A DNA stretch of 33,611 bases from Syntrophobacteraceae bacterium (GTDB lineage Bacteria > Desulfobacterota > Syntrophobacteria > Syntrophobacterales > Syntrophobacteraceae). The position numbers and the translations under genes are program-made. The DNA is taken from positions 1-33,611 of the forward strand of contig JADGQM010000008.1 of NCBI GenBank assembly GCA_017881795.1, written 5' to 3'. This document shows, in pieces, positions 2,952-12,897 of this stretch. Each line of letters begins with the position of its first letter. The first letter of the stretch is position 1. The notes beneath the pieces were generated by a model that had not been told where the DNA came from, searched no databases, and saw nothing but the letters and a program-made list of their open reading frames with translations.

Positions 2952-3021
2952 CGCCCGAGCGCTCGCCGCGGAAATCGCACTGAAGCAAGAACTTCTTCGA
3001 GTGATTAATGGGAACATCACC

Positions 3022-3090
3022 CTGTCAAGCCGGCGAAAGCCGGCAGCCGGACCGCTTTTCTGGATTCAGACGTGCATCGGAATGACAACC
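3022..3090. repeat. Dispersed intergenic repeat with GAAA-capped palindrome
   Basis: GCCGGC-GAAA-GCCGGC at 3029-3044 is a perfect hairpin with a GNRA tetraloop. It is followed by a CTGGATTCAGACGTGCATCGG segment and GAATGAC. I recognise this arrangement as a common dispersed intergenic repeat in proteobacterial genomes. Only one copy is in the window, so repetition itself is not shown here. Confidence 0.45.
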
Positions 3091-3133
3091 AGTAGATTTT
3101 GGGCATCGTTGTGACCCTGCCAGGTCACTGAGC

Positions 3134-3721
3134 TTAAGGGGAAGGCTTCACCTCATAGAGGCCTATGGCGTTCAAGGTGTAGGAGTTGAGCTCGTTTTCC
3201 GCTTTGCTCAGCGCTTCCACGGTCCCAAAGATAACTTCTGCCTGGGAGTGGTGGTTGGCCGCTAGTTCCACAAAAACGGCCTCCAGATACATCGCCTGGA
3301 GGGACGATAATCGCCCGATGAGACCAATACGGCGCGCTTCAGAAATACTGCACCGATCGACCAGCGAGCGGGATCGCAGGAAAAAGTCTTCCCCTGAATC
3401 CCCCCATTTTGCGGTCCATCCATCAAGCGCGTTCTGCAGATCGTAATCCACTGAAAAGTCGTCATCGATTTCTCCGCCGGAGGTTGTCACAGCAATGATG
3501 GTTTCCATGTCGCTCCAACCTGGGTGATCAGTGAGTGCTCTGATATCTTGAAGAAGCGTTTGAAGCTTTTCGTAGAACACGGTTGATGCCTCGCTCAGGC
3601 TATCCAGAGCGGCATTGGCTTCCCGGAGGCGGGCCTCTGCTCTTGGAGTGGGTTTTGGCAGTGTCGCACAGGCCGCTAGGCTTACCAGAATCAGAATACC
3701 AGCCATCAGGTTACGGAGCAT
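3134..3721 (-). CDS. Putative lipoprotein of unknown function
   Basis: The 195-residue product starts with a lipoprotein signal, MLRNLMAGILILVSLAACAT, with a good lipobox (LAAC, lipidated cysteine at residue 18) and no aspartate directly after it. The mature protein is largely helical and acidic, with heptad-like stretches early (AEARLREANAALDSLSEA) and late (EVIFGTVEALSKAENELNS), suggesting a coiled-coil or helical bundle in the periplasm. No known domain is recognised. It would depend on prolipoprotein processing, for which lspA is encoded further on at 15681-16265. It is a single-gene unit between plus-strand genes. Confidence 0.65.
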   Translation of the reverse strand: MLRNLMAGILILVSLAACATLPKPTPRAEARLREANAALDSLSEASTVFYEKLQTLLQDIRALTDHPGWSDMETIIAVTTSGGEIDDDFSVDYDLQNALDGWTAKWGDSGEDFFLRSRSLVDRCSISEARRIGLIGRLSSLQAMYLEAVFVELAANHHSQAEVIFGTVEALSKAENELNSYTLNAIGLYEVKPSP

Positions 3722-4152
3722 GAGTCGGGTGATCTCCTCACTTATCCAATTCGATTCGCCATCTTCGATATCGTCCGCAGGTTTATCGGATTATCAATCG
3801 AGGCCAATCTTCGCCGCATGTTTCTTTATCATGTTGGGCTTTGCTGTCAATGTTCTTTTGAGCAGAGCCGGCGCCACCAGCGAACATTTGAAATGCCCAT
3901 TAATTTTTTTGTGGGCAAGGAGTTATAGATGAAGAGAGATGGATAGCGCATCGTTCCCCTCGAATCGTTGTATAGAAAGGCTCTCCATAGCCCTTAACCG
4001 GATCATGCGGACCGCGCGGTCTGGAGTTCGCCGAGATCATGGTGTTGAGAGGTTTGGGATTGCGACAGTGGGGAGTCGTGGTTATTGAAGGGTGACTCGG
4101 CGGACCCAGGTGAAGCGCAGGATCAGCATTGACAATCTCTTAGGGAGTGGCG
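3722..4152. other. Intergenic region, no gene seen; contains a 12-bp palindrome
   Basis: This 431-base gap separates the divergent lipoprotein and rhomboid genes and must hold their promoters. The only clear structure is GACCGCGCGGTC at 4010-4021, a perfect 12-bp palindrome about 130 bases before the rhomboid start, which could be an operator. Open frames here have no coding character. Confidence 0.4.
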
Positions 4153-5007
4153 ATGGGAAACCAAGAGAGAAGTTCGATTTTGTGCCCTAACTGTAGAAGG
4201 CTCATCAGCATTGACGAGTCGCCCTGTCCTCAGTGTGGCCTGCGGAATCCCGGGTCCAGGTGGAGGAATAATTTCCTGACCAAAGGTTTCCGCGATGGTG
4301 ACCAGCTCATCAGGAATATCATCTACCTCAATGTTGCCATGTTCATCTTGTCGGTTGTTTTGAGCCCGTCCTCCACACGGTTTTCCATGAACCCGCTCGA
4401 TTTTCTTTCTCCTGGCGACAGGAGCCTGCTGCTCCTGGGAGCGACAGGACGCATCCCCATCGACAAATTTCATCGCTGGTGGACGCTCCTCTCGGCAAAT
4501 TATCTGCACGCCGGCATTCTCCACATCCTCTTCAACATGGTGGCATTCTATCAAATTGCCCCTCTCATTCTTCAGGAATATGGCGGATCCAGGATGATCT
4601 CAATCTTTACCCTCAGCGGCGTCGGTGGCTATGTGGCTTCCTACTTTGCCGGAGTGTCCTTTACCCTCGGCGCCTCTGCGGCCGTTTGCGGCCTCATCGG
4701 TGCGGCGCTCTACTACGGGAAAAGCAGAGGGGGATACTTCGGGCAAATGGTCTATCGACAGGTAAGCGGCTGGGTCCTCGGCATCTTCATCTTTGGTTTC
4801 CTCATTCCGGGTATCAACAACTGGGCCCATGGTGGTGGGTTGATTGGCGGCATTTTGACAGCGTCTCTCATGGGCTATAAGGAGCGAAGCCCTGAAAAGT
4901 TCTTAGATAAAGGTGTAGCCAGCATTTGTATCCTGGCCACTCTCGGGGCGCTTTTCTGGGGAGTCTGCTCATCTTTTCTAATCCTTGCGTACAGTTCGGT
5001 GCCATAA
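4153..5007 (+). CDS. Rhomboid-family intramembrane serine protease with N-terminal zinc ribbon
   Basis: The 284-residue protein begins with a zinc ribbon (C11, C14, C25, C28 in CPNC...CPQC), followed by about six membrane helices. The rhomboid signatures are present: WTLLSANYLHAGILHILFNM in loop 1/helix 2, the nucleophile S175 in TLGAS, and the partner H226 in NNWAHGGGLIGG. It should cut membrane proteins inside the inner membrane, with the ribbon in the cytoplasm. The catalytic serine is followed by AA rather than the usual G, a variation seen in some members. I chose ATG 4153 because GGGAG at 4143-4147 is spaced five bases from it; an in-frame GTG at 4147 overlaps that site. The substrate is unknown. 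Confidence 0.88.
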   Translation: MGNQERSSILCPNCRRLISIDESPCPQCGLRNPGSRWRNNFLTKGFRDGDQLIRNIIYLNVAMFILSVVLSPSSTRFSMNPLDFLSPGDRSLLLLGATGRIPIDKFHRWWTLLSANYLHAGILHILFNMVAFYQIAPLILQEYGGSRMISIFTLSGVGGYVASYFAGVSFTLGASAAVCGLIGAALYYGKSRGGYFGQMVYRQVSGWVLGIFIFGFLIPGINNWAHGGGLIGGILTASLMGYKERSPEKFLDKGVASICILATLGALFWGVCSSFLILAYSSVP

Positions 5008-5023: not shown

Positions 5024-5616
5024 TCAGCCCTGGATAAGCCAGAGGTTCACCGCGGTCGCGCCAGCTTCATCTAAATCGGAGAACTTAATAATATAGGAAT
5101 GGTCATCCCGTCCCATGCTCACCACCTCACCGTCAATCAGGACGCCCTTCCCCAGCAATCCCGGGATTTCCACCTGGACCGACGCGAAAATCTCCAGAGA
5201 TAGCTTCGTTTCCAGTTCTGCGCCTGTAGACGACAATTGGACCAGTCGGCCCTCGTGAGGCGAAGGGTCGATTTGTTTTCCGAGTATTAAACGAATGCGA
5301 ACGGGTATGGGAGCGAAGAGCTCGTTGAGCCCAGAAAGCCGTGATGTCGGGTAACGATCGTTGAGAATCAAAACATGCGTACTGACCCTCGCCGCTCGAA
5401 GACGCCGCAAGAGCTCCACACCATCTGTCCCTGGAAGCATTAGGTCCAAAATCAAGATGCTGAAGGGCTGACTCCTGGCAAGCTCCAAACCCTTCAGGCC
5501 ATCTCTTGCCAGCTCCACCAGGAATCCAGCCTCCGTGAGGGCCCTGGGCGCACAAACCCAGCGATGGCCTCCTCGTCTTCCACAATCAAGATGCGGATTG
5601 ATTGGTTTTCTTCCAT
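5024..5616 (-). pseudogene. Frameshifted response regulator: receiver half fused to a PilZ-like domain
   Basis: From ATG 5616 the frame reads MEENQSIRILIVEDEEAIAGFV, a receiver start, then runs out of frame near 5540-5555. Reading resumes in another frame with ELARDGLKGLELARSQPFSILILDLMLPGTDG, so the phospho-acceptor Asp is present. Compared with the intact regulator at 10815-11522, two extra C residues within about 10 bases (CGCCCAGGGCCCTC against CGCCAGGGCCTC) cause the break. After VLIL the similarity fades: the beta-5 lysine and the winged helix are missing. A PilZ-like domain follows instead (RLVQLSSTGAELETKLSL, then IIKFSDLDEA). PilZ domains bind c-di-GMP. It is a degraded paralog, divergent from the hydrogenase operon. 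A sequencing error in C-runs cannot be excluded. Confidence 0.75.
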
Positions 5617-5755
5617 GGATTTGCTCTCTCGATCGAGGCGCAACTTGCGGCTGGCTCTTGCGAACATCAAGCCGTCATCTTGCCCCGCAAAGAAACTTAG
5701 AACGCCACCAAACCGTAGAGTCAATGGCAAAGAAAAAGCCTCTCTCCCCGGATTA

Positions 5756-5894: not shown

Positions 5895-6866
5895 GTGAAC
5901 GTATCGAGAAGACACTTCCTTAAGTATTGTTTGGGATCTGCGGCGACCTTGGGGCTAAGCTCCTCTCTGCTGGGCAATCTGGACAAAGTGCTGGCAACGG
6001 GCGGAGGTCCGCCGATCATCTGGCTCGCGGCTGCAAATTGCACCGGCTGTACTGTATCCTTGGCCAATCGCATCGCCATCGACCACCCGACAGATGCGGC
6101 CGATCTTCTCATCTCCAACGTAAACCTCGCTTACCATCCGAACCTTATGGGGGCCGCCGGGAGCCTGGCTGTGCAGAACGCCCTCAAAGTCGAGCAGTCG
6201 GGTACCTTTGTGCTGGCCGTGGAAGGCGGGATACCCACCGCGTTTGGAGGCCGGTGCTGCTATGTGTGGAGAGAGCAAGGAGTCGACATGACGGCCATGC
6301 AGGTGGTAACGCGCCTGGCTCCCAAGGCGGCGGCGGTGCTAAGCATCGGCACCTGCGCAAGCTTCGGCGGCATGTCCGGAGCTGCCCCCAACCCTACGGC
6401 CATCCAGAGCGTCCAGGCGCTCACCGGCGTCTCGACGATCAATATCCCGGGCTGCCCCGCCCATCCCGACTGGATCGTGGGAACCATTGCGAAGCTACTC
6501 GCAGGCACCACGGTGAGCAAGGATTCTTACGGTCGTCCGACGGATTTTTTTGGCTCGACCGTCCACAGCAACTGCCCGAGAAACGGGACTCCCTGGGCAA
6601 CCAACTTCGCGCAGGAGGGGCTTTGCCTCAGAGACAAAGGCTGCAAGGGGCCGAACACCTACAGCGACTGCCCGGGCCGCAAATGGAACGGGGGCGTCAA
6701 CTGGTGCGTCGGGGCAAACGCTCTTTGCATCGGTTGCACCGAGAGCGGATTTCCTGATCGCTTTTCGCCTTTCTTCACCTCTGCAGGGGCGGTTCCCCTT
6801 GGCCATACGGCTGGGCCTCAAACGGCATCATGCTCGGCTTGCCATACGCAATCGCAACTGCCTTAG
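5895..6866 (+). CDS. [NiFe] hydrogenase small subunit, Tat-exported, with C-terminal CxxCH
   Basis: The 323-residue protein carries the three Fe-S clusters that move electrons from the NiFe site. The Tat signal is SRRHFLK at residues 4-10. Proximal cluster ligands are C49, C52, C154 and C187; distal ligands are H224, C227, C244 and C250; medial ligands are C259, C278 and C281. C271 sits where most group-1 enzymes have proline (NWCV for NWPV), predicting a medial [4Fe-4S] cluster. The extra cysteines of oxygen-tolerant enzymes are absent (G51, G159). The usual C-terminal membrane helix is missing; the protein instead ends with ASCSACHTQSQLP, a CxxCH heme-attachment motif at 313-317. The GTG start at 5895 has AAGGA nine bases upstream. 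It is followed by the large subunit, a CxxCH protein and the maturation protease. Confidence 0.95.
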   Translation: MNVSRRHFLKYCLGSAATLGLSSSLLGNLDKVLATGGGPPIIWLAAANCTGCTVSLANRIAIDHPTDAADLLISNVNLAYHPNLMGAAGSLAVQNALKVEQSGTFVLAVEGGIPTAFGGRCCYVWREQGVDMTAMQVVTRLAPKAAAVLSIGTCASFGGMSGAAPNPTAIQSVQALTGVSTINIPGCPAHPDWIVGTIAKLLAGTTVSKDSYGRPTDFFGSTVHSNCPRNGTPWATNFAQEGLCLRDKGCKGPNTYSDCPGRKWNGGVNWCVGANALCIGCTESGFPDRFSPFFTSAGAVPLGHTAGPQTASCSACHTQSQLP

Positions 6867-6948
6867 GCGGCACAGCTGAAGGATGAAACCATCGCTTGGC
6901 TGAATCGTTGCCGAGCCGATCTCAGGATCAACAGGATTGGAGGCTATT

Positions 6949-8415
6949 ATGCCTAGTGTAATCACGGTTATGGATCCGGTCACACGGATTGAAGGACACA
7001 TGAAAGTAGAGGTGACCATTAATCAGGTCAACGGCGTTACACAAGTTGTCGATGCCAAGTGCACTGGGACCCTGTTCAGGGGCTTCGAGAAGATCTTGAC
7101 GGGAAGAGACCCAGAAGACGCAGTGTATATTACGGAAAGGATATGCGGAGTTTGCCCCGTTTCCCACGGCATGGCGGCCACTCTTGCGACTGAAGCTGCG
7201 GCAGGAATGACAGCTCCCACCAATGGAAGAATCATACGAAACCTCGTCCTTGGATCAAACTATATTCAGTCCCACCTCCTGCACTTCTATCTGCTGGCGG
7301 CAGTGGACTATGTCAAGGCTCCGAACTCTGCCCCCTGGACCCCGGCGTGGAACCCGACGGACGCTACAAACGGGCAGGGTCTGGATTTCCGCTCGGACCC
7401 GACGCTGGACGCCGTTGGGGGCCACATTCCCAAAGCTGTCGCGTTGCGTCGGACCGCCCATCAGATGGGGGCCATCTTCGGCGGGAAACTCCCCGCGCCG
7501 GCCAATTTCCTTGCAGGAGGATCCTCTTCGGTGCCGAACTCCTCCCGCATCAGTGCTTTCCGGTCGTATCTGGCAGTACTCCAGCAGTTCATCAACAACG
7601 TCTACATCCCCGACGTAGAGGCGGTGGCCAACATGTACTCCGACTACAAGCAGATTGGGGTTGGGAGCGGGAACCTGCTGTCTTACGGGGTCTTCGACCT
7701 CGATAACGCTGGAACCACGAAGCTCCTCTCTCGCGGGACTTACAGGAGTGGATCTGTTCGGACTCTTGATCTCAGCCGGATCACCGAACAAGTGGCTTAC
7801 TCATGGTACAGCGGCTCCACTGCCCGGCCCCCGGCGAGTGGTGTGACCACTCCGGTGGATCCCGACACAAAGACGAACGCCTACTCATGGCTGAAAGCTC
7901 CCCGGTATAACAATCTCCCCTACGAGGCGGGGCCGCTTGCGCGGATGAAAGTAAGCAACAAATACACTGGCGGGATTTCGGTTATGGACCGTCATCTGGC
8001 GCGCGCCTACGAGGCCAAAGTCGTAGCCGATGCGATGAGCGGATGGCTGACTCAGCTCCAGCAGAACCTGACCGGCAAGGTCTACAACACATACACCAGC
8101 CCCGCGAGCGGAAACGGCATAGGACTTACGGAAGCCCCTCGAGGCGCTCTGGGGCACTGGGTGAGTATCGCCAACGGCAATATCAGCAATTACCAGATCA
8201 TCACACCCACTTGCTGGAACGCTTCTCCCAAGGACGCCAACAATGTAAAAGGCCCCATGGAGCAAGCTCTGATAGGCACTCCCGTAGATGATTCGAACCG
8301 GCCGATCGAGGTGTTGCGGGTCATTCACTCCTTTGACCCGTGCCTTTCATGCGCTGTGCATGTGATGCGCCCCGAAGGAAAGCCCGTCGTGATTCGCGCG
8401 GGTGCCTGCAGGTAG
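6949..8415 (+). CDS. [NiFe] hydrogenase large (catalytic) subunit
   Basis: This 488-residue subunit holds the NiFe active site that splits or forms H2. The L1 motif RIEGHMKVEV is near the start. The four nickel ligands are C66 and C69 in ERICGVCPVSH, and C465 and C468 in DPCLSCAVH. After H471 there is a 17-residue tail (VMRPEGKPVVIRAGACR) that must be removed by the endoprotease encoded at 10004-10504. At 488 residues it is shorter than many group-1 large subunits. It has no signal of its own and should ride out through the Tat pathway with the small subunit. ATG 6949 has GGAGG seven bases upstream, so I prefer it to the in-frame TTG at 6937. hyp genes are not in the window. Confidence 0.96.
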   Translation: MPSVITVMDPVTRIEGHMKVEVTINQVNGVTQVVDAKCTGTLFRGFEKILTGRDPEDAVYITERICGVCPVSHGMAATLATEAAAGMTAPTNGRIIRNLVLGSNYIQSHLLHFYLLAAVDYVKAPNSAPWTPAWNPTDATNGQGLDFRSDPTLDAVGGHIPKAVALRRTAHQMGAIFGGKLPAPANFLAGGSSSVPNSSRISAFRSYLAVLQQFINNVYIPDVEAVANMYSDYKQIGVGSGNLLSYGVFDLDNAGTTKLLSRGTYRSGSVRTLDLSRITEQVAYSWYSGSTARPPASGVTTPVDPDTKTNAYSWLKAPRYNNLPYEAGPLARMKVSNKYTGGISVMDRHLARAYEAKVVADAMSGWLTQLQQNLTGKVYNTYTSPASGNGIGLTEAPRGALGHWVSIANGNISNYQIITPTCWNASPKDANNVKGPMEQALIGTPVDDSNRPIEVLRVIHSFDPCLSCAVHVMRPEGKPVVIRAGACR

Positions 8416-8598
8416 GCGCTGCCTCTCGGCCTTTTCCCGGCGAAGGGCTTGACGCCTTCTCAGCCGCGTGGGGCTCGATCTCTTCTCCTGTTCGGAGGAA
8501 AGATCGAAAGGGAAGGACTCAACCTATTCAGAGAACTGCGGGCAGGTTCAGCCTGTCTCATAAATGCTTCTATTCGGACGGTGTAATAAGGAGAAAAC

Positions 8599-9903
8599 AT
8601 GAAACGAATAAAATGGAGTCTGTTTCTGGCCATGCTAGTGTTCCTGGCTCTCATGCAGGCCTCATTCGCCTTGGCTTCCTCCGGAGATACGGGCTACTCG
8701 GGCATGAGTGGACAAAATTGTGGCGCGTGTCACAGTGGAGGAACCGTTCCAACGGTTACGATATCGGGTCCGACGACCGCAACTGCCGGTTCCGTAAACA
8801 GTTACACCTTCAAGATCACGGGAGGTCCGCTCGCAGCCGGGGCTTGCGATATAGCGGCCTCGGGAGGGTCATTGGGTGCGGGAACGGGTGACACACTGAA
8901 AAACAGTGAAATCTCGGGTGGGCCGACAGCCCCATCTGCCGGGGCGGTGTCTTTTCCGTTTACATGGACCGCTCCCGCCACTGCAGGCACTTACACGCTC
9001 TATGGTTGCGGCCTTTCCACTAATGGGAATGGAAGTAAATCCGGAGATGGTTCAACGGCTATGACGTTTACGGTTACGGTAGCGGGCGCCACTAATGTGA
9101 GTGTGCCAAACGTCGTGGGCGTGACCCAGGCAGCGGCAACCACAGCGATCACGAACGCAAAACTGGTACTCGGGACCGTGACGCAGCAGGCAAGCTCGAC
9201 GGTACCCGCCGGGTCGGTCATAAGCGAGAACCCGGCCGCCGGATCCAGCGTGGCGCAGAACAGCGCGGTAAATCTGACCGTATCCACGGGACGTCCAACG
9301 AACAGCCTTCCTCCCGTGGCGAACGCCGGGCTTGACCTGACGGTTCTTCCCGGCACTTTCAACGTACTGAGCGGGTCCTACTCCAGCGATCCCGACAACG
9401 GCATTGCCTCCTACCTCTGGACACAGACCGCGGGTCCGGCGGTGAAACTATCCGACCCCACGGCGATAGACCCGGTCTTCCAGGCCCCAACGAGTCCGAC
9501 GACGCTTACCTTCACCCTGACAGTGACTGATAATGGCGGGCTGCGGAGTAGCGACACTGTCTCAGTGGTGGTAATGCCTCCGGATGCTCCCCCGCAGCCT
9601 CCTCCAGCCAACCAGCCGCCTGTGGCCAATGCGGGATCCAACCGTACAGTTACGGCCGACTCCAGGGTAACACTCTCAGGGGCTGCGTCCACGGACCCCG
9701 ACGATGGCATCGCCGCCTACCAGTGGCAGCAGGTCTCGGGGACTTCGGTGACCCTGTCGGGAGCAAACACTGTCAACGCCTCCTTCGTCCCACCGGATGT
9801 GGGTTCCTCAGGTGCAACGCTCACTTTCAAGCTCACCGTTACTGATCGGGGGGGCCTGAGCTCCTCCGCAACCGTGAGGATCACCGTGCACGAAGATGAT
9901 TAA
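8599..9903 (+). CDS. Secreted CxxCH protein with PASTA and two PKD-type domains
   Basis: The 434-residue protein has a Sec signal peptide cleaved after about residue 26 (ASFALA). The mature start reads GYSGMSGQNCGACHSGG, with a CxxCH heme motif at 41-45, inside a beta-rich domain to about 160 that resembles the choice-of-anchor V / Reeler-like exported domains. A PASTA domain follows at about 167-231 (VPNVVGVTQAAATTAI). Two PKD-like immunoglobulin folds come next, at about 238-328 and 341-432, each starting PPVANAG. C83 and C137 may form a disulfide. It sits between the hydrogenase and its protease with a good AAGGAG site, so it is probably an electron-transfer or anchoring partner of the hydrogenase. 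No membrane anchor or lipobox is seen, and the heme may lack a methionine ligand. Confidence 0.85.
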   Translation: MKRIKWSLFLAMLVFLALMQASFALASSGDTGYSGMSGQNCGACHSGGTVPTVTISGPTTATAGSVNSYTFKITGGPLAAGACDIAASGGSLGAGTGDTLKNSEISGGPTAPSAGAVSFPFTWTAPATAGTYTLYGCGLSTNGNGSKSGDGSTAMTFTVTVAGATNVSVPNVVGVTQAAATTAITNAKLVLGTVTQQASSTVPAGSVISENPAAGSSVAQNSAVNLTVSTGRPTNSLPPVANAGLDLTVLPGTFNVLSGSYSSDPDNGIASYLWTQTAGPAVKLSDPTAIDPVFQAPTSPTTLTFTLTVTDNGGLRSSDTVSVVVMPPDAPPQPPPANQPPVANAGSNRTVTADSRVTLSGAASTDPDDGIAAYQWQQVSGTSVTLSGANTVNASFVPPDVGSSGATLTFKLTVTDRGGLSSSATVRITVHEDD

Positions 9904-9946
9904 GGGATGGGTGCCGGACTGGGCGTTTGTCCCGCAATCCTGAAAT

Positions 9947-9981
9947 GTGAACGGCCACACAGTCCGAATGTGGCCGTTCAC
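9947..9981 (+). promoter_or_regulatory. Perfect 13-bp hairpin before the hydrogenase protease gene
   Basis: GTGAACGGCCACA at 9947-9959 pairs perfectly with TGTGGCCGTTCAC at 9969-9981 around a nine-base loop, 22 bases before the protease start. No T-run follows. The next bases, CTCC, can pair with the GGGG of the protease ribosome-binding site at 9991-9994. It could lower readthrough or translation of the protease relative to the structural genes, or protect the upstream mRNA end. Confidence 0.55.
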
Positions 9982-10003
9982 CTCCTGAAAGGGGTCTTGC
10001 TTC

Positions 10004-10504
10004 TTGAAGAAAGTTCTGGTTCTCGGAATAGGAAACCTCCTGCTCTGTGATGAAGGCGTTGGCGTACATGCGGCCCAGGCCTTGATGCGCTCGGAGGTCC
10101 CGGAAGGGGTGACCGTCCTGGACATCGGAACGGCAATTATCGATGCGATGCCCGACCTCGAAGAGGCCGATTTCGTGATCGTAATCGACGCGGTAAAAGC
10201 CGACGGAGCCCCCGGGACGGTCTACCGCGTCCCCTTCGGCGACATGGTGCAAACCGAGTGCATCGCCTCGATGCACGGGTTCGACCTATCGCGGGTGCTC
10301 GCGCATGCCGGGCGGGAGGCCATGCCCGAAGTGCTGGTAATTGGAGTGGAACCGGGCGTGATCGACTGGTCGGTCGAGCTTTCTCCCGAAGTGCAAAAGG
10401 CCCTGCCGACTGTCCTCGATCAGGTTGGGAAGGAAATTGAGCTTTTCCAAAGCAGAACATGGCCGGGCAACTTGCCCGGAGAGCAGGACCACACCACCGC
10501 TTGA
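10004..10504 (+). CDS. Hydrogenase maturation endoprotease (HyaD/HybD family)
   Basis: The 166-residue protein cuts the C-terminal tail off the nickel-loaded large subunit, letting it fold shut and pair with the small subunit. It starts with the family motif LGIGNLLLCDEGVGVHAAQAL. The three nickel-sensing residues of HybD are matched by E17, D62 (VIDAVKAD) and H91 (SMHGFDL). The length is typical of the family. Translation seems to start at the TTG at 10004, with GAAAGGGG about nine bases upstream; no ATG fits better. It is the last gene of the hydrogenase operon, and its presence implies that the large subunit is processed. Acts in the cytoplasm before Tat export. Confidence 0.93.
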   Translation: MKKVLVLGIGNLLLCDEGVGVHAAQALMRSEVPEGVTVLDIGTAIIDAMPDLEEADFVIVIDAVKADGAPGTVYRVPFGDMVQTECIASMHGFDLSRVLAHAGREAMPEVLVIGVEPGVIDWSVELSPEVQKALPTVLDQVGKEIELFQSRTWPGNLPGEQDHTTA

Positions 10505-10676: not shown

Positions 10677-10814
10677 GCTCCAGGCAGGCGGCTCTTCCTG
10701 TGCGGTTGACTTAAGGATCGGGAAGGGTTCTAAAAGTCATGGTGGAGCAAGGGAATGGCAGGATCTTTGCCCACGTCGGTCTCAAGCTGGCCTTTGATCA
10801 CGAGAGCAACTCCG

Positions 10815-11522
10815 ATGTCAGGGAACCCATCAACCCGCATCTTGATTGTGGAGGACGAGGAACCCATCGCAGGTTTTATCCGCCAGGGCCTCATGGAGGC
10901 AGGATTCGTGGTGGATATTGCGGGTGATGGCCTTCGTGGCTTTGAGCTCGCAAAGAGCGAACCCTACAACATCTTGATTCTCGACATAATGCTTCCTGGA
11001 ATAGACGGTCTGGAACTATTGCGGCGTCTTCGATCGACGGGGATGAATACACACGTTTTGATTCTTAGCGCCAAGGGGAGTGTCAGTGACCGTGTCACCG
11101 GCCTTCAGTTAGGGGCAGATGATTATCTAACCAAGCCCTTCGCCTTTGCAGAGCTCCTTGCGCGGATCCAATCTCTGTTGCGTCGGGATCGTGGGGCTCA
11201 GGAACCTTTGAGCCTTGTCGTATCCGATCTCATCCTGGACCTTTTGAACCGTAAAGCATTTCGGGGTGGAGAAGAAATTGACCTACAGCCTCAAGAGTAT
11301 AGCCTCCTGAAATATCTTATGGTTAATCGTGGCCGGGTCGTTACGCGCACCCAGATTTTGCAACATGTCTGGGGCTATAACTTCCACCCTTCGACAAATC
11401 TTGTCGAGGTTCATGTGTGCCGATTGAGGGAGAAGATCGAACGCTCTGACAAGCCGAAACTGCTGAGGACGATCCGTGGTGCGGGTTACATGCTGAATGA
11501 CGATGTTCAAATATCTGAATAG
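10815..11522 (+). CDS. OmpR-family DNA-binding response regulator
   Basis: The 235-residue protein has a receiver domain (1-120) and a winged-helix DNA-binding domain (about 130-230). Receiver residues are E13/D14 in IVEDEE, the phospho-acceptor D57 in LILDIMLPG, S85 and K107 in TKPF. The output domain shows the OmpR pattern, with LTPQEYSLL-like LQPQEYSLLKYLMVNRGRVVTRTQIL and VEVHVCRLREKI. It overlaps the kinase gene by 26 bases, so the pair is co-translated. I chose ATG 10815, which places the receiver as in relatives; an ATG at 10755 with GGAG upstream is possible and adds 20 residues. A frameshifted paralog lies on the other side of the hydrogenase operon. Control of the hydrogenase is inferred from position and the shared 13-nt motif. 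Confidence 0.93.
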   Translation: MSGNPSTRILIVEDEEPIAGFIRQGLMEAGFVVDIAGDGLRGFELAKSEPYNILILDIMLPGIDGLELLRRLRSTGMNTHVLILSAKGSVSDRVTGLQLGADDYLTKPFAFAELLARIQSLLRRDRGAQEPLSLVVSDLILDLLNRKAFRGGEEIDLQPQEYSLLKYLMVNRGRVVTRTQILQHVWGYNFHPSTNLVEVHVCRLREKIERSDKPKLLRTIRGAGYMLNDDVQISE

Positions 11523-12897
11523 CCTATCGGGCCGCTTGATATTCTGGTACGCGGGGGTTTTCGCCCTCTGTTTTGTGGCCGTGTTTGTGGGTTTTTATCC
11601 CGCCATACACAGTGCCATACACCTCTGGACCGACAGGGAACTTAAAGCAGAAGCTAATGAGTTCAGGGAGGTCTACGCCAAATCGGGGGTATCAGGACTC
11701 ACTGAACTGCTGAGGCAAGAGGAGAGAGAAGAAAAGGGACGTCTTCTTGCCCGCATCATCGACGAGACGAATCGGATTATTTTCGAGATAGCCCCTGGGC
11801 AATTGGCCCAGGTGCACGTGGATGACAAGCTCATGGAGAAGGCCCGTTCGGGTCTGGAAGTCGGGGAAACGATCGATTTGCCGGACGCTTATGATATGTG
11901 TGTCCTCTACACACCCGTTCAAGACGACCTGATCGTTCAGATTGGATTGACCCTCCAGGAACATGAGCTATGGATGAAAAAACTCTCCGAGGGTGTCTTG
12001 ACAGCGGCGCTCGTGGCTCTCCTCTTGTCGGTAATTGCCGGCGGGTTTCTGGTGCGCCGAACGCTCTCTCCCCTTCAGAGGATGGCTCAGACCGCATCGG
12101 AAATTTCCGGCCGCTCTTTGGGACAGCGCATGCCTGTCTCAGGACGCGGCGATGAAGTGGACCAACTCGCTTTAGCCTTCAACAAAATGCTCGAGCGCAT
12201 TGACAGGCTCGTCCAGGGTCTTCGTCACGTGACGGACACTCTCGCGCATGATCTCAGAACGCCTATCACTGGAATCCGGGGCATCGCTGAAATAACCCTG
12301 CGCGTTCCACGTGAACCCGAGGCTTACAGAATGACACTCCATCGGATTATTGAACAGTTGGACCGGCTTTCCAGCCAATTCACCGCTATTCTGGATGTGT
12401 CCGAAGCTGAAGCCGGGGTTCTGGCGCTACAGTATGAAAAAGTCTCCTTAGACGATTTGGCGAGGGACGTGCTGGAGACCTTCCAACCCGTTGCTCTGGA
12501 CAAGGCAGTCCGGCTGGAAGGGGCGATCACCCCCGGGATGATCATAACAGGAGATAGAGGGCGCCTTTTTCAAGCCCTGGCCAACCTGCTGGACAATGCA
12601 CTTAAGTATACAGCCGCCGGATGCCGGGTTCGATTGTCAATCGAACCGGATCGCCGCGGCGCGGGGACGATAGTCTCTGTGGCTGATGGCGGGGTTGGAA
12701 TTGCAGAGGAAGACCTTCCCCACATCTTCGAACGCTATTATCGAGGGGACGAAAACCGTTCTGGTCCAGGGGCCGGCTTGGGATTACCTCTTGTGCAAGG
12801 GGTCGTCGAAGCTCACGGCGGGAAGGTGACAGTCGAGAGTGAGCTCGGGAAGGGCTCCACGTTCCGAGTGCTCCTCCCACGGGACATGAAGCCTTGA
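11497..12897 (+). CDS. Membrane sensor histidine kinase (HAMP, HisKA, HATPase)
   Basis: The 466-residue kinase has a first membrane helix at about 12-36, an extracytoplasmic sensor segment of about 125 residues, a second helix at about 165-185, and a HAMP region at about 185-240. The phosphorylation site is H251 in TLAHDLRTPITGIRG. The ATP-binding domain has the N-box NLLDNALKY, the G1 box VADGGVGIAEEDLPHIF and the G2 box GAGLGLPLV. The architecture is that of the CusS/heavy-metal-type kinases, but the sensor segment has no metal-binding cluster I can see. It is the cognate kinase of the overlapping regulator gene. The signal is unknown. An in-frame ATG at 11503 is an alternative start. Confidence 0.93.
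   Translation: MTMFKYLNSLSGRLIFWYAGVFALCFVAVFVGFYPAIHSAIHLWTDRELKAEANEFREVYAKSGVSGLTELLRQEEREEKGRLLARIIDETNRIIFEIAPGQLAQVHVDDKLMEKARSGLEVGETIDLPDAYDMCVLYTPVQDDLIVQIGLTLQEHELWMKKLSEGVLTAALVALLLSVIAGGFLVRRTLSPLQRMAQTASEISGRSLGQRMPVSGRGDEVDQLALAFNKMLERIDRLVQGLRHVTDTLAHDLRTPITGIRGIAEITLRVPREPEAYRMTLHRIIEQLDRLSSQFTAILDVSEAEAGVLALQYEKVSLDDLARDVLETFQPVALDKAVRLEGAITPGMIITGDRGRLFQALANLLDNALKYTAAGCRVRLSIEPDRRGAGTIVSVADGGVGIAEEDLPHIFERYYRGDENRSGPGAGLGLPLVQGVVEAHGGKVTVESELGKGSTFRVLLPRDMKP

Follow-up and report, generated by a model that had tools for sequence, protein, structure and literature searches.

In group 1 hydrogenases, the small subunit (SSU) has its C-terminus close to the distal cluster, at the site of contact with cytochrome b in membrane-bound forms, and the membrane-bound enzymes of this group carry a C-terminal extension at the electron exit towards heme. 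In E. coli Hyd-1 (4gd3), this extension is a transmembrane helix that contacts cytochrome b. The periplasmic [NiFeSe] hydrogenases HysAB of Desulfovibrio and Desulfomicrobium (2wpn, 1cc1) are exported through Tat, have no membrane helix and depend on a separate tetraheme cytochrome c3. FohAB, the MIC hydrogenase of methanogens, is a Tat-exported [NiFe] enzyme whose SSU ends in a group-specific hydrophilic tail; N-glycosylation sequons in the FohB tail have been proposed to set localisation, and no CxxCH was reported (PMC12667266).

The hydrogenase described here is encoded by an operon (Table 1) in the window, by which we mean the whole stretch of 33,611 nucleotides of Syntrophobacteraceae DNA that was analysed. 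It shares with HysAB the full-length SSU fold, Tat export, the absence of a membrane helix and the medial-cluster cysteine, but it has a cysteine (DPCLSC) instead of selenocysteine and a putative heme tail of 28 residues. As in Hyd-1, the SSU continues past its core, probably at the electron exit towards heme; in contrast to the Hyd-1 helix, the tail is hydrophilic with a c-type heme motif of its own, and the operon is without cytochrome b. Homology combined with established knowledge would place the tail at the position of the anchor helix in membrane-bound hydrogenases, close to the contact with cytochrome b. Among the precedents found for an SSU tail specific to one group, FohAB comes closest, although it is archaeal. 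No description of a heme-bearing hydrogenase SSU tail was found in the searchable papers, which were open-access only and amount to weak evidence of absence.

Operon layout and enzyme class

The SSU has 323 residues and a GTG start, and its last residues are ...GHTAGPQTASCSACHTQSQLP. It scored 217.5 bits against the TIGR00391 cut-off of 179.5. Among solved structures it comes closest to the periplasmic NiFeSe HysB of Desulfovibrio vulgaris (2wpn, E 1.6e-66), with query residues 2-295 covering essentially all of HysB, and Foldseek concurred. Residues R5, R6 and F8 of the Tat motif are invariant in an alignment of 37 sequences, and the Cys and His residues of the cluster-binding regions are conserved. 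Since Cys271 aligns with a Cys of HysB, a medial [4Fe-4S] cluster is favoured. The C-terminal end of the large subunit (LSU) reads DPCLSCAVHVMRPEGKPVVIRAGACR; this subunit contains the Ni-binding CxxC motifs RICGVC and DPCLSCAVH|V, with a C-terminus of the protease-cleaved type and the protease gene in the same operon.

Table 1. Features of the hydrogenase operon in window coordinates
Feature	Position	Strand	Basis
Operon gene order: SSU, LSU, third exported protein, maturation protease		+ (all)	
Hydrogenase small subunit (SSU), HysB-like with putative heme tail	5895..6866	+	TIGR00391, PF01058, PF14720; best PDB match 2wpn
Tat signal peptide region, motif SRRHFLK (end approximate)	5895..5999	+	sequence
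C-terminal tail, residues 296-323, past the end of HysB	6780..6863	+	2wpn alignment stops at residue 295
His304, candidate distal heme ligand	6804..6806	+	upstream His in 19/19 tail units
CSACH, heme c motif, residues 313-317	6831..6845	+	sequence; kept in tailed clade
Hydrogenase large subunit (LSU)	about 6949..8415; alternative start 6937	+	PF00374 416 bits; NF033181 572.7 bits, just below its cut-off of 600
Third gene: exported one-heme-motif protein, choice-of-anchor V + PASTA + two PKD domains	8599..9903	+	NF041895 115.3 bits (cut-off 42); PF03793; PF22352/PF18911
CGACH motif of third protein	8719..8733	+	sequence (NCGACH)
13-bp hairpin between third gene and protease gene	9947..9981	+	RNA fold of 9895-10010, z = -3.4; no clear T run after it
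Hydrogenase maturation protease (HycI/HyaD type)	10004..10504	+	TIGR00072 127.8 bits (cut-off 47.45), PF01750

Full-length SSU homology, the Tat signal and the LSU motifs are those of a group 1 periplasmic [NiFe] hydrogenase of the HysAB-like type; HydDB subgroups (1a, 1b and so on) rest on the phylogeny of the catalytic subunit (PMC5037454). The enzyme does not belong with the [NiFeSe] hydrogenases, as it reads DPC rather than DPU and so has no selenocysteine ligand, and it missed the cut-offs of NF045518 and NF045520 (506.6 of 780 and 275.5 of 470 bits). Nor is it of the membrane-bound HyaABC type, given its hydrophilic SSU tail and the absence of cytochrome b from the operon. The first-pass annotation had described an SSU without a C-terminal membrane helix and with CSACH near its end, a third gene for a secreted protein with CGACH, and no cytochrome b gene. 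The first two descriptions hold in the sequence, the third protein having a Sec-type signal peptide ahead of its motif, and a scan of eight proteins in and around the operon found no cytochrome b. We consider it probable that the enzyme is a soluble, Tat-exported [NiFe] hydrogenase of the HysAB type with a one-heme mini-cytochrome as a flexible SSU tail.

The operon is flanked by two response-regulator genes (5024-5674, minus strand; 10755-11522, plus strand), whose products are 58.7% identical over the aligned part. The divergent one is composed of a receiver and a PilZ domain, and the other forms a pair with a CusS-like histidine kinase (11497-12897).

The C-terminal tail and its distribution

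The 28-residue tail ends in SAGAVPLGHTAGPQTASCSACHTQSQLP. By composition alone, the probability of a CxxCH is about 1e-3 in a tail of this length and about 2e-4 anywhere in the Cys- and His-poor third protein, in agreement with the first-pass view that two such motifs are unlikely to be chance. Conservation in the clade is the stronger argument, and a chance motif is rejected on this conservation together with the multiplication of the units. Sixty SSU relatives were searched, and a pattern search of genome contigs yielded 80 named loci; nearly all relatives are metagenome-assembled genomes (MAGs) and none is characterised. In a tree built from the SSU core and the LSU with the tail columns omitted, 38 proteins form one clade (100/100), separate from HysAB-like outgroups. 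Whether the tail is kept in a clade had been asked at the outset; it is, in 14 of the 38 members, close homologues included.

Among the 60 relatives, all SSUs at 65-75% identity to the window protein are tailed, with one CxxCH in L031 and L032, two in L033 and four in L034, whereas the tail is absent from the 57%-identical L036 and from every SSU below 47% identity. L031 is a second heme-tailed hydrogenase in the window genome itself. Further tailed SSUs were found in Pelobacter sp. UBA6812 (L047), Geobacter sp. GAC1 (L048), a Desulfuromonadales MAG (L049), a MAG labelled Acidobacteriaceae (L053/L158) and G510 (L149), and a second tailed subclade comprises L064, L068, L071 and L082. Ten tailed members fall in one subclade and four in the other, with 19 CxxCH units in all and one to four in each tail, scattered over Syntrophobacteraceae, Desulfuromonadales and other, mostly uncultured, bacteria. 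The clade is sparse at E below 1e-78 (4/56 genomes of the window's class, 10/395 of the phylum). Desulfoferrobacter suflitae, the one member found that is in culture, has no tail. Tailed rows are strongly clustered in the tree (4 changes, against 12.3 in shuffles), and the state changes on supported branches number at least three, which implies either more than one gain of the tail or repeated losses. One member first counted as untailed (L156) was excluded from the tailed/untailed ratio because its SSU frame at 3636-4658 (minus strand) continues into the LSU C-terminus, by internal deletion or an assembly join. A viral or mobile origin was rejected, with no relatives found among viral contigs.

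Several loci of the clade have particular arrangements. The order is LSU, protease, two-heme lipoprotein, SSU in L069 (5622-8912), and the LSU precedes the SSU in L049 (2648-5751). On the L031 contig, a cytochrome b561-type gene (PF01292, 211-849) lies on the opposite strand, convergent with the hydrogenase, and an NtrC-type regulator gene diverges from it; a tRNA-Cys called by ARAGORN at 3020-3095 (plus strand), antisense within the SSU gene, is probably a false positive.

The tails of relatives hold 1, 2 or 4 CxxCH. As in c-type cytochromes, the CxxCH is conserved in orthologues and so is a candidate for the second axial ligand, a His placed 7-12 residues ahead of the motif in every unit, while much of the remaining tail is variable. 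The pattern is mostly GH(P/D)..CxxCHG in one subclade and PHGG..CxxCH in another. The four-unit tail of L034 is a tandem repeat of LPxGHPxxxGQSCTSCHG-like units, and its match to the doubled CXXCH of PF09699 is weak (E 0.0075, below the cut-off). CxxCH takes heme c in exported proteins if a maturation system is present, and cytochrome c assembly proteins are encoded in the window genome. AF2 left the tail unstructured in both a one-unit and a four-unit protein, with pLDDT below 50 for most of the window tail; such a prediction is expected without heme and is uninformative on heme binding.

A different chemistry has been weighed for the motif, namely that the tail CxxCH is a site for Zn or another metal, a redox thiol or a localisation tag. 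CxxCH by itself is no proof of heme, the tail is short (28 residues) and predicted to be disordered, and other clade members have charged or Ig-like tails without heme, which may serve localisation; Ig-like C-terminal extensions of more than 100 residues occur in L050, L051, L052, L058 and L073, with Big_6 in L073 and choice-of-anchor D in L051. Tandem multiplication with a constant upstream His is, however, the mark of small c-type cytochromes, and export, the heme assembly genes and the weak doubled-CXXCH match of the four-unit tail also speak for heme. We therefore regard a non-heme site as very unlikely.

The third gene and heme genes beside related hydrogenases

The third protein resembles choice-of-anchor V proteins (NF041895) in exceeding their cut-off and in carrying CxxCH at the typical N-terminal position of the family, but it differs from them in its added PASTA and PKD domains, the absence of a C-terminal anchor and its location in a hydrogenase operon. 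An N-terminal CxxCH is present in 38/45 choice-of-anchor V hits, and some of the remainder read CxxxCH. In L189, a choice-of-anchor V relative is found in the same protein as two further CxxCH, and that region, on reading rather than profile search, resembles PKD plus a diheme peroxidase. The family occurs in only 11/385 genomes of the phylum, and its sole member found in the window genome is the one inside this operon, where it separates the LSU from the protease, genes that adjoin in relatives.

The first-pass annotation had proposed this protein as the partner of the SSU tail. Its position between LSU and protease and its family-conserved CxxCH are in favour of that proposal, but the pairing is not general. 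A choice-of-anchor V protein was present in 0/13 other heme-tailed operons and was not found in the other tailed genomes searched, and none of the 13 has any adjacent exported-type heme gene. The family occurs in 2/25 genomes with this hydrogenase clade and is hydrogenase-adjacent only here, and a conserved partnership was rejected. Therefore, the third gene is an addition specific to this operon and not the standard partner of the clade.

Of the untailed clade members, 7/23 have an exported-type CxxCH gene beside the hydrogenase on the same strand; the corresponding figures are 2.4% for random anchors and 4/54 for outgroup loci (Fisher P 0.014), as scored by a simple filter (motif plus hydrophobic stretch) on small numbers and MAG assemblies. 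The adjacent product is an 8- to 10-heme cytochrome in L062, L074 and L151, a small two-heme protein in L066 and L069, and in L150 and L070 a protein that combines one or two heme motifs with extra domains; a one-heme gene about 2.9 kb upstream in L061 was not scored as adjacent. The difference between tailed (1/14) and untailed members is not significant (Fisher P 0.12), and a trade-off between fused and separate heme is suggestive only. An Ig-like repeat in the L051 SSU shares 57-58% identity with the repeat in the free-standing heme protein of L150, on another branch, which points to module exchange between SSU tails and partners. The best reading is that the exit module is interchangeable across the clade, consisting of one to four fused heme units, separate exported heme proteins, Ig-like extensions or nothing. 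More tentatively, and at somewhat less than even likelihood, the clade may have evolved swappable and expandable exits (tails of one to four hemes or dedicated exported heme proteins, some with Ig-like or PKD domains) that would link H2 turnover to electron donors or acceptors on the cell surface or past it, with neither quinone nor membrane cytochrome b involved.

Electron route and meaning

How the tail might work can be outlined as follows. The FeS core would fold together with the LSU in the cytoplasm and then be exported by Tat, and after export the cytochrome c maturation system would attach heme covalently to CSACH in the unfolded tail, with His304 as the likely second heme ligand. Electrons would leave the distal [4Fe-4S] cluster for the tail heme, in this presumed direction, and continue to the heme of an acceptor, either in the co-encoded secreted choice-of-anchor V protein, which would then presumably touch the SSU in the same putative location, or in a periplasmic multiheme cytochrome.

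The two candidates for the next carrier, tetraheme cytochromes c3 and the third protein, are equally plausible. Speaking against the co-encoded protein are its absence from the other tailed operons examined and the strong hairpin that parts its gene from the protease gene, and four PF02085 cytochrome c3 hits lie elsewhere in the window genome. The tail heme might accordingly do no more than dock or relay to the usual periplasmic pool, with cytochrome c3 as acceptor and the third protein serving adhesion or anchoring rather than electron transfer. Those four hits, the PASTA/PKD domains typical of surface proteins, and the Desulfovibrio precedent, where Tp1-c3 is considered the probable main partner of the periplasmic hydrogenases (PMC4215793), are consistent with this account, to which we give a real chance, short of even. 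It sits less easily with the insertion of the third gene between otherwise neighbouring genes, with CxxCH as the conserved mark of that protein's domain, and with the exported-type heme proteins that adjoin the hydrogenase in several untailed relatives. Another account, compatible with the one-heme-tail reading that we prefer, has the enzyme work on the surface of the cell or outside it, as the extracellular MIC hydrogenase does, with the tail heme and the third protein connecting it to solid or cell-external donors or acceptors. The similarity of the third protein to modular surface proteins, the repeat that, in relatives, Ig-like SSU tails have in common with a heme partner bearing Ig domains, and the proposed role of SSU C-terminal variation in the location of FohB (PMC12667266) fit such a placement. 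Yet neither a secretion system nor an anchor was identified that would serve the complex, Tat by itself delivers to the periplasm and the third protein ends without an anchor, and we consider a surface location rather unlikely.

On the preferred reading of a one-heme mini-cytochrome tail, the tail points to a small built-in wire by which the enzyme would hand its electrons on. It raises a question of maturation, in that a Tat substrate is exported folded with its FeS clusters yet would acquire c-type heme outside. A natural hydrogenase-cytochrome fusion with countable heme units (1, 2 or 4) would offer a test of the handover from a distal FeS cluster to a heme wire, and a fused heme tail would be a natural design for hydrogenase-electrode wiring. 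H2-linked extracellular electron exchange in uncultured bacteria is thereby made testable, and the tail may serve as a sequence marker for such exchange.
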